Assembly (NCBI GenBank): GCA_030614915.1
Contig: JAUXAG010000003.1
Coordinates: 124,001-188,000 of the forward strand
From: Actinomycetes bacterium
GTDB lineage: Bacteria > Planctomycetota > Phycisphaerae > JAACET01
Direction of reading: 5' to 3'
Length of the DNA: 64,000 nt
Shown: positions 50,190 through 53,055 of the stretch, piece by piece
Layout of the letters: each line of letters opens with the position of its first letter
Numbering within the stretch: position 1 is the stretch's first letter
Program-made: the position numbers and the translations under genes
The notes under the pieces: generated by a model
Told to the model about the DNA's origin: nothing
What the model saw: only the letters and a program-made list of their open reading frames with translations
The model's database searches: none

Positions 50190-51821
50190 TTACCTGGCGT
50201 ATTCCACGCAGCGCACTTCACGCAGCAAGGTCACCTTTATCTCCCCGGGATACTGCATCTCGTGCTCGATTTTCTCAGCGATTTCCCTGGCCGTCTTCAT
50301 CGCCGTGCTGTCATCCATTTTCGAAGCATCCGCCAGGACTCGGATCTCCCGACCGGCTTGAATGGCGTAGGCCTGCTTGACCCCCGAAAAACTGTTCGCC
50401 AGACCTTCCAGTTTCTCCAGCCGCTTGATGTAACGCTCCAGGCTCTCGCGTCTGGCTCCCGGACGGGCTGCACTGACCGCATCTGCCGCCGCTACCAAAG
50501 GCGTGTAAAAATTCGTAGCCGCAATGTCCCCGTGGTGCCCGGCGATAGCGTTTAGGACCTCTTCCGGTTCATTGTAGCGCTTCGCCAAAGCCAGCCCGAT
50601 CTCCGGATGCGTTCCCTCCATCTCGTGGTCCGCCGCTTTGCCTATGTCGTGCAGCAGTCCGCACCGCCGGGCCAACTGCCCGTTCAAACCCAGTTCCTCA
50701 GCCATCATTTCCGTCAAGTAGGCCACTTCCATCGAGTGCCGCAGTACATTCTGACCGAAGCTCGTCCGATAGCTCAGCCGCCCCAGCAGGGCAATTTCCT
50801 TCGGATGAAGCTTTTGTATGTTTGCTTCCAGGGCCGCCTGCTTGCCAGCCTCCTGAATCTTTTCGTCCAACTCTTTCTTTACCTGCCCCACCAACTCTTC
50901 AATTCGACCCGGATGAATCCGACCATCGTGGATTAGCCTCTCCAGCGACTCCCTGGCCACTTCGCGCCGAATCGGATCGAAACAACTGACCACCACCACC
51001 CCCGGCGTGTCGTCCACGATTACGTCCACCCCCGTAGCCCTTTCAAAGGCCCGGATGTTACGCCCTTCTCGACCTATTACGCGGCCCTTCATGTCGTCCG
51101 AGGGTATATCCACGGTCGAGACCGTAGCTTCAGCCGTGTGCTCCGCCGCGTATCGCTGGATGGCATTAATCACGATTTCTCGGCTCTTGGCCCGGGCTTG
51201 TTCCTTGGCTTCGTTCACCCGCTGTTCAATCAGAGCCGAGCTTTCCTTGGCCAACTCCGCCTCCAGCTGACTCATCAGCATCTGGCGAGCCTGGTCCACG
51301 CTCAGGCCCGTGATCTTCAAAAGTTGAGTCCGCTGCTGAGCAAGGGTCTCGGCCACTTGCTTCTCTCGCCCCTGCAAACTGCTCTCCTTGGACGCCAAAC
51401 GTTTCTGCCCCTGCTCCAACAGCCGTTCCTTATGGGCCAAGGTATCCATCTTTCGCTCGAGGTTATCTTCCCTCTTGCTTAGCCGTTTGGTCAGATCGCG
51501 CAGTTCCCGTTGCGTTTGGGAAGTCTGTTCTTCGAATTCTTCCCGCCGCTTGAGAAACTCAGCCTTGGCTTCCAACTGGGCTTCCTTCTTTAGCCTCTCA
51601 GCATCCTCCCTGGCCCGAGCCGTGATAGCCCCCGCATTCTCTTTGGCCCTGAATTGCCGCTGCTTCCCTATAAGGCTTCTGATGACCAAGCCTACCACTG
51701 CCCCTATCACCAGCACCACGATCCCTATCAAAACAAGTTCCATAAGGCCCGGAGCAACAAATCCCAAAGGCAATCCCGCCATTCCTGCAGTACTTGAGCT
51801 ACTTATCATAGTTGTGTTCAC
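50190..51821 (-). CDS. rny: Ribonuclease Y
   Basis: A membrane-bound endoribonuclease that initiates mRNA decay. There is one membrane segment ([20 protein letters not shown]), a long coiled coil (about 50-205), a KH domain near 215-280 ([20 protein letters not shown]) and an HD domain near 360-450 with [16 protein letters not shown] and AGHHGD. 543 residues. The start is GTG 51819-51821, after AAGGGA. A promoter at 52419-52448 suggests a leader of about 590 bases. Confidence 0.95.
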
Positions 51822-52412
51822 GTTTATTCCCTTTCTTTATCGTTTTATTCAGCCAGCCTCGCGCCCGGCAGACTTATCACCTCGACCTGCTCTTGGCCCG
51901 CACTGGCCAAACTGTCCTCGCGGTAATCAGAACGAAAAAGATAGAGCCTTGTGGTTAGCCCCCGAACTACCCCCCCCCATAGGTCCTCAGCTCCAGGCCA
52001 AGAGTATCAAGCTAAGGTCTTCGCCGGAATCTCACGTCACCAGGGCTGACCTCCCCAGGCACAGTTCGGCAAACGAATCTCCCCTGCACCTCGTAAGCCC
52101 TTGAAGAAAACCATCCTGGCAGCCATTACGTGAACTTCCTGACACAGTTCTAGTCTTCCCTAGCCCTTACAGCCTGGAATCGCCGAGCATCCCGGAATGA
52201 GATTACCACTCCGGCAATACGCCCGACCCTCTCAGGACCGAAACCACTTTTTTCCGCGTCTGCACCGCCTGTTCTTCAGCCGTGCCGACAAGGTTCTACC
52301 TTTCCGTTATTCACCGCTCTTTCTGCTTTTGCTCGGCCATCCCCAGACTTCTGTCCGCTTCGCAAAAGCAAAACCACTCTGCGCCGCCGGCTCTGGCCGA
52401 CGACGTCCTCAA
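51822..52412 (-). other. Long untranslated leader of rny or an unrecognised structured RNA
   Basis: About 590 bases without a credible gene, starting from a promoter on the minus strand. Read in that direction it has pairable segments: GCTTTTGC with GCAAAAGC about 34 bases later, TTGGCC with GGCCAA, and GGCAC with GGTGC around CTGAAGAACAG. I looked for RNase P, tmRNA, 6S and SRP RNA landmarks and did not find them. No T-tract terminator is seen before rny. Confidence 0.4.
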
Positions 52413-52418
52413 GCTAAT

Positions 52419-52448
52419 ATTATAGTCCCATCGATCCGGCCGGGTCAA
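52419..52448 (-). promoter_or_regulatory. Promoter facing rny
   Basis: On the minus strand, TTGACC (52443-52448) and TATAAT (52419-52424) are separated by 18 bases, between the tsaE stop and the long leader. Confidence 0.6.
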
Positions 52449-52551: not shown

Positions 52552-53055
52552 TTATTCCCCTTTGCCTCTCTTGGCCCACTCTTGGCCCAGCCTCTCCAGT
52601 AGTGCCCTGGACTTCTGCCCCCCACAACTCAGGCTGATCCGCCGGCTCCTCGGGCCCGTTATAATCAAATGCAAGCTCAGCCGGTCGGCCGGTAGGCCAT
52701 CTGCCACGTGGTCCGCCCATTCCACCACCGTCAGACCGCCTTGGCTGAGAATCTCCTCAAAACCCAGCGAATTCAACTCCCCCGCCCCGCTCAGCCGGTA
52801 GGCATCAACGTGAAATAGCCGCAGCCGTCCGGCATGTTCCCGGATCAGAACGAAAGTCGGGCTTCTCACCTCCTGCCTGTTCTTCACTCCCAGAGCTGCC
52901 GCGACCCCTTTGATCAGACGCGTCTTGCCAGCCCCCAGTTCCCCCACCAATCCCACAACGTCACCCGCCCGGCTGGCCAAACCGATAGCCCGCCCCAGCG
53001 CCTGCGTCTGGGACTCGCTGTGGCTCATAAATTCCAGTTCTGATTTGTCGTTCAT
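52552..53055 (-). CDS. tsaE: tRNA threonylcarbamoyladenosine biosynthesis ATPase TsaE
   Basis: An ATPase needed, with TsaB, TsaC and TsaD, for the t6A modification of ANN-decoding tRNAs. The Walker A motif GELGAGKTRLIKGVAAALG, RSPTFVLIREH, LFHVDAYRL and VVEWADH are diagnostic. 167 residues, close to the usual length. It starts 3 bases after thiL stops. Confidence 0.93.
   Translation of the reverse strand: MNDKSELEFMSHSESQTQALGRAIGLASRAGDVVGLVGELGAGKTRLIKGVAAALGVKNRQEVRSPTFVLIREHAGRLRLFHVDAYRLSGAGELNSLGFEEILSQGGLTVVEWADHVADGLPADRLSLHLIITGPRSRRISLSCGGQKSRALLERLGQEWAKRGKGE

Follow-up and report, generated by a model that had tools for sequence, protein, structure and literature searches.

The window, a 64,000-nt stretch of DNA, lies on contig C2 of a 2.56 Mb genome (G000). 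On its minus strand the genes run in the order thiL, tsaE (52552-53055), a leader region, rny (50190-51821), a TIGR00282 phosphoesterase gene and xseA. The gene downstream of the leader is, judged by its domain matches, certain to encode RNase Y, which is an initiator of mRNA decay in many bacteria. An RNase E/G is also encoded in this genome (G000:C16:29874-30683, PF10150, 337 bits), so RNase Y is not the sole such enzyme there. We place the window DNA in the class Phycisphaerae by sequence comparison, the rny of its close relatives being next closest to that class. Two same-genus relatives, G001 and G002, carry rny genes with 93% and 76% identity to that of the window, respectively. The public records of close relatives (L058 and L059; DAOVKO010000232.1 and JAACET010000078.1) are titled Actinomycetes/Actinomycetota and have an rny otherwise closest to Phycisphaerae; these two records are probably mislabelled MAGs. 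The features of the locus, in the direction of transcription, are:

52443-52448, minus strand: -35 box TTGACC of the rny promoter (TTGACT in G001 and G002)
52419-52424, minus strand: -10 box TATAAT after an 18-base spacer (TATAAT in G001, TATAGT in G002)
52382-52405, minus strand: 5' hairpin H1, predicted in all three genomes with a pairing probability of about 1
52321-52373, minus strand: predicted 5' hairpin H2 (GCUUUUGC/GCAAAAGC; GCUCUUGC/GCAAGAGC in G001 and G002), with one double compensatory change
52288-52317, minus strand: 5' strand of the predicted closing helix P1, with compensatory changes in G002
52258-52289, minus strand: hairpin P2 of the predicted fold
52232-52249, minus strand: invariant stretch AAGUGGUUUCGGUCCUGA, identical in the three genomes
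52182-52227, minus strand: stem-loop P3 of the predicted fold
52022-52147, minus strand: domain P5 of the predicted fold, with the invariant CUGUGUCAGGAA at its 5' arm
51920-51952, minus strand: 3' strand of the predicted closing helix P1, where the conserved block ends
51829-51838, minus strand: Shine-Dalgarno-like AAAGAAAGGG of rny, also present in G001
50190-51821, minus strand: rny, encoding RNase Y (TIGR03319, 692 bits with a cut-off of 454; PF12072, KH and HD)

The first-pass annotation had placed no gene between the promoter and rny, and indeed no credible gene lies between the tsaE end at 52552 and the rny start at 51821. The alignment of G000 and G001 across this region contains single-base indels, which argue against coding, and G002 aligns in islands only. 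A leader peptide from a short GUGAAUA frame was rejected, the frame spanning 12, 12 and 27 codons across the genomes (by eye) with no Shine-Dalgarno sequence kept. The start of rny itself is uncertain within 51809-51821 of the window: the GTG at 51821 is GTA in G002, and an ATG four codons on is present in all three genomes. In the rny leaders of other class members, the start lies nearer to residue 27.

The TTGACC-18-TATAAT element that had been read as facing rny is present on the minus strand at 52448-52419. It matches the consensus at 11 of 12 positions and is the sole promoter-like site in the 4 kb scanned, a scan that by itself is at chance level (1 found vs 1.0 expected). All three members of the genus retain the promoter with its 18-base spacer (TTGACT-18-TATAAT in G001 and TTGACT-18-TATAGT in G002), and G002 does so though most of the bases around differ. 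From the position of the promoter, transcription is predicted to start near 52412.

A strict form of the pattern, TTGACN-16/19-TANNNT at 300-850 nt upstream of rny as measured from residue 27, was scanned across the class. On the rny strand such a site occurs at 59 of the 84 rny loci (1 on the opposite strand; shuffles with a mean of 1.6 and a maximum of 4), a count in which related loci are not independent and for which the antisense control has the same relatedness. The promoter distances cluster at 500-800 nt from rny, the predicted leaders have a median length of 523 nt with quartiles of 435 and 576 nt, and a promoter-like site falls within the last 300 nt before rny at 1 of 83 loci. The pattern is also present at 3 of the 16 loci assigned outside the class by record titles and identity. 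A terminator-like site is present in 11 of the 59 leaders on the sense strand and in 6 on the antisense, at scattered positions, and no fixed terminator was found among these leaders. The other rny upstream regions of Phycisphaerae have conserved blocks of their own at a similar distance from rny, and the consensus folds of two genera, g3 and g4, are without a clear structure signal. The promoter-led leader layout thus appears to be common to the class, with leader sequences that seem to be lineage-specific.

Folding was performed genome by genome for G000, G001 and G002, and the three folds share two 5' hairpins, the closing helix P1, hairpin P2, stem-loop P3 and the P5 domain. The compensatory change in H2 is of the U-A to C-G type. 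The clearest helix is P1, in which 16 of the 18 listed pairs are retained in G002; four pairs carry double changes there (C-G to U-A, A-U to G-C, G-C to A-U, and A-U to G-C), and further pairs are retained via one-sided changes. The consensus fold of the three genomes is 6.3-6.5 sd below column shuffles on the rny strand, these shuffles preserving gaps and the conservation of each column but letting dinucleotides vary. The corresponding controls gave z-scores of -2.5 for the antisense strand, -0.9 for the rny coding sequence and +1.0 for the tsaE coding sequence. Folded as a single sequence, the 500-nt RNA is 3.6 sd below dinucleotide shuffles (antisense, -1.2). The long-range helices that the first-pass annotation had called possible therefore stand above chance in both the single-sequence (z -3.6) and the three-genome consensus (z -6.3) folds.

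The leaders of G000 and G001 match at 89% across the first 530 of 627 bases. Beginning near 51919, their similarity is lost over some 70 bases; it is regained before the rny Shine-Dalgarno region, so that the boundary of the conserved block coincides with the end of the P1 3' strand. In G002, the leader retains conserved islands only, such as AAGUGGUUUCGGUCCUGA and CUGUGUCAGGAA. An intrinsic terminator at 51962-51943 was considered and rejected: the terminator-like site falls on the P1 3' strand and, as conservation stops with that strand, the U run there is read as part of the helix. At about 51970-51978 of the window, the RNA strand has nine consecutive G; this tract is not equally long in G000 and G001, and it may be a site that is prone to slippage or sensitive to assembly. 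Searches with blastn and a sequence profile found the window RNA in its own genus only (three genomes).

Two further leader families were characterized in the class. Of 397 class genomes, 20 contain the f10 motif GAGRCCYTCGGGYYATA, with 17 of the 20 sites located 259-448 nt before rny on the rny strand and the remaining 3 without a nearby rny; the motif has no match in G000, G001 or G002. The consensus fold of the f10 trio has a z-score of -9.5 (antisense -4.9, coding -3.8). In the f10 genomes L025/L093, L094 and L104, the entire 1.2 kb upstream of rny is 71-80% identical, which would be above expectation for ordinary intergenic DNA.

For f16, a covariance model (R3) was built from eight rny leaders. 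It matches 21 of 397 class genomes (20 f16 and one f25), some of which supplied these leaders, at one site per genome and with E down to 8e-29, and all 21 sites lie directly upstream of rny on the rny strand. R3 also matches several of the remoter leaders of group 3 in the same position (L099, E 4e-7; L107, 0.001; L109, 0.007), so that groups 2 and 3 very likely form a single leader family. In a structure-fitted alignment of 28 distinct sequences, double changes are seen at 17 of 22 pairs, and covariation amounts to 101 double-change cells vs 31 when shuffled and 14-24 when slid; the original MAFFT alignment of eight leaders gives 14 cells vs 4.9. The f16 core contains an invariant internal loop, GAWA/AA. 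The group 2 consensus fold has a z-score of -11.1 (antisense -4.3, coding -1.0), and its closing helix covaries, with a 3' arm ending about 40 nt before the AUG. In the case of group 3, the score is -9.2 for sense vs -10.7 for antisense, so the strand there is assigned from R3 and the position before rny. The covariance check upstream of rny that had been proposed for relatives thus revealed compensatory changes in P1 and strong covariation in the f16 leaders, and the search for conserved structure or sequence in relatives, run on sequence, found the promoter, the fold and the position conserved.

R3 has no matches in the phylum sample beyond Phycisphaerae and no leader match in the window, L054 or L055; hence the layout is shared between families, and kinship of their leader sequences is not demonstrable. 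The string CGGUGAAUA..GAAAGG is found in f16 leaders as well as in the window RNA; it is a tentative lead, since its pairing differs between the two. Weak R1 matches to further genomes of the class (L150-L155, E 0.001-0.009) were set aside as about the chance number over 397 genomes, and an R2 match in L101 as lying inside a coding frame.

The first-pass annotation had also suggested an unknown structured RNA, which agrees with the comparison against Rfam 15: no family reaches its gathering score in the window leader, and the only matches at E up to 10 are chance ones. The rny leaders of other class members sampled likewise match no Rfam family. Specifically, the Rfam rne families (the RNase E 5' UTR element and rne-II, RF01756) give no above-gathering match in the window leader, and the known riboswitch classes in Rfam give none in the window leader or the sampled class leaders. 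An identity with 6S RNA (RF00013) was rejected, there being no match here; the sole match of the genome lies at C35:23068-23252 (L057 5069-5253) and, at 49.8 bits against a cut-off of 46.4, is barely above it. RNase P RNA, tmRNA and SRP RNA were likewise rejected, their strong matches lying elsewhere, at C32, C31 and C35. In one Phycisphaerae MAG, three Acido-Lenti-1 RNA matches are clustered downstream of rny (L062 5982-6298).

With its conserved promoter, a fold that carries compensatory changes, a conserved position and the same layout throughout the class, the structured, promoter-led rny leader proposed earlier is well borne out, and we consider a conserved structured leader, as a claim on its own, highly probable. 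In the mechanism we propose, a sigma-70-type promoter would yield a transcript, its first 590 nt or so untranslated, in which two 5' hairpins would be followed by a multi-helix domain (52317-51920) closed by the long helix, whose end would lie about 100 nt ahead of the rny start codon, and then by rny. The leader would work in cis: free RNase Y would cut or bind it and leave the mRNA open to decay, capping the supply of the enzyme, and RNase Y occupied with other RNA would leave the leader intact. Action in cis is favoured because the leader is contiguous with rny, there is no fixed terminator and no nearer promoter, and the R3 RNA occurs only at rny. Feedback via the leader appears to be the likeliest role in view of two precedents. 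The RNase Y of Bacillus subtilis limits its own mRNA partly by cutting within a leader of 164 nt, after which RNase J1 acts (PMC10303841), and the RNase E of Escherichia coli is described in PMC10989929 as subject to feedback through its own leader. Taken as a whole, a promoter-led cis leader by which RNase Y restrains its own mRNA, in a class-wide layout, is in our analysis the favoured reading, held with moderate confidence.

The near-consensus promoter, the large closed fold and the invariant stretches are also like those of stable RNAs, and conservation falls for about 100 nt from P1 to the rny Shine-Dalgarno region. The RNA could accordingly be an independent ncRNA of 400-500 nt adjoining rny, with its own promoter and an end past the closing helix, acting in trans and possibly working with or on RNase Y, with rny reached via read-through or an unrecognised promoter. 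However, a terminator at a fixed place is absent among the 59 leaders, a promoter-like site occupies the last 300 nt at 1 of 83 loci only, the group 2 closing helix lies about 40 nt from the AUG, and R3 never finds the f16 RNA away from rny; we regard an independent RNA as unlikely. In a bolder reading, the Phycisphaerae rny leaders would form one ancient, fast-evolving class of large RNA with a role beyond autocontrol, the closed domain being freed from the rny transcript as a stable RNA guiding, reserving or scaffolding RNase Y, which we offer as a speculative and improbable extension.

A cis leader might instead respond to something besides RNase Y, such as a metabolite or ion (as a riboswitch), temperature or a different RNA-binding protein, and set rny expression accordingly. 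Large conserved leader folds are typical of such elements, and the invariant GAWA/AA loop of f16 could serve as a binding site, but no Rfam riboswitch matches, the conserved terminator switch is absent, and the RNA is found at rny only, while riboswitches usually serve several genes; such a sensor seems unlikely. The idea of a functionless long untranslated stretch, its fold a chance product of G-rich sequence, draws on the long spaces that occur in these genomes and on the weak signals in g3 and g4. It is opposed by the z-scores, the strand asymmetry, the compensatory changes and a promoter position shared across the class, and f16 covariation speaks against a chance fold for that family, which makes this explanation highly improbable.

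Among the papers found, leader-based self-control of rny has been worked out in B. subtilis only. A long, covarying rny leader across the class suggests that RNA decay in planctomycetes has long been under strong control. The sequence models from this analysis can find rny leaders, and the named helices provide targets for mutation.

The window RNA resembles 6S RNA, RNase P RNA and tmRNA in having its own promoter, a length of a few hundred nt and a closed multi-branch fold, features that also belong to the large bacterial non-coding RNAs OLE, ROOL and GOLLD. The window RNA differs from these large RNAs in its link to a single gene, rny, into which it would run on. The 5' UTR of B. subtilis rny is alike in being the untranslated leader of an orthologous gene, but it is 164 nt long vs about 590 nt in the window; its strongest cuts map to an AU-rich 5' end that contains a single stem-loop, whereas the window leader has a large covarying fold, and its control acts partly via cuts in the coding region (PMC10303841). 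The rne leaders, namely the enterobacterial feedback element and rne-II (RF01756) of Pseudomonadales, share a conserved structure ahead of the gene of a decay-initiating endonuclease, as described in PMC2864571 and PMC10989929; they differ in enzyme family and phylum, and no Rfam rne family matches the window leader. We found no description of a planctomycete rny leader in the open-access literature searched. The leader of a nuclease gene is a known kind of element; for the size, the fold and the class-wide use of the present one, the sources searched offer no precedent.
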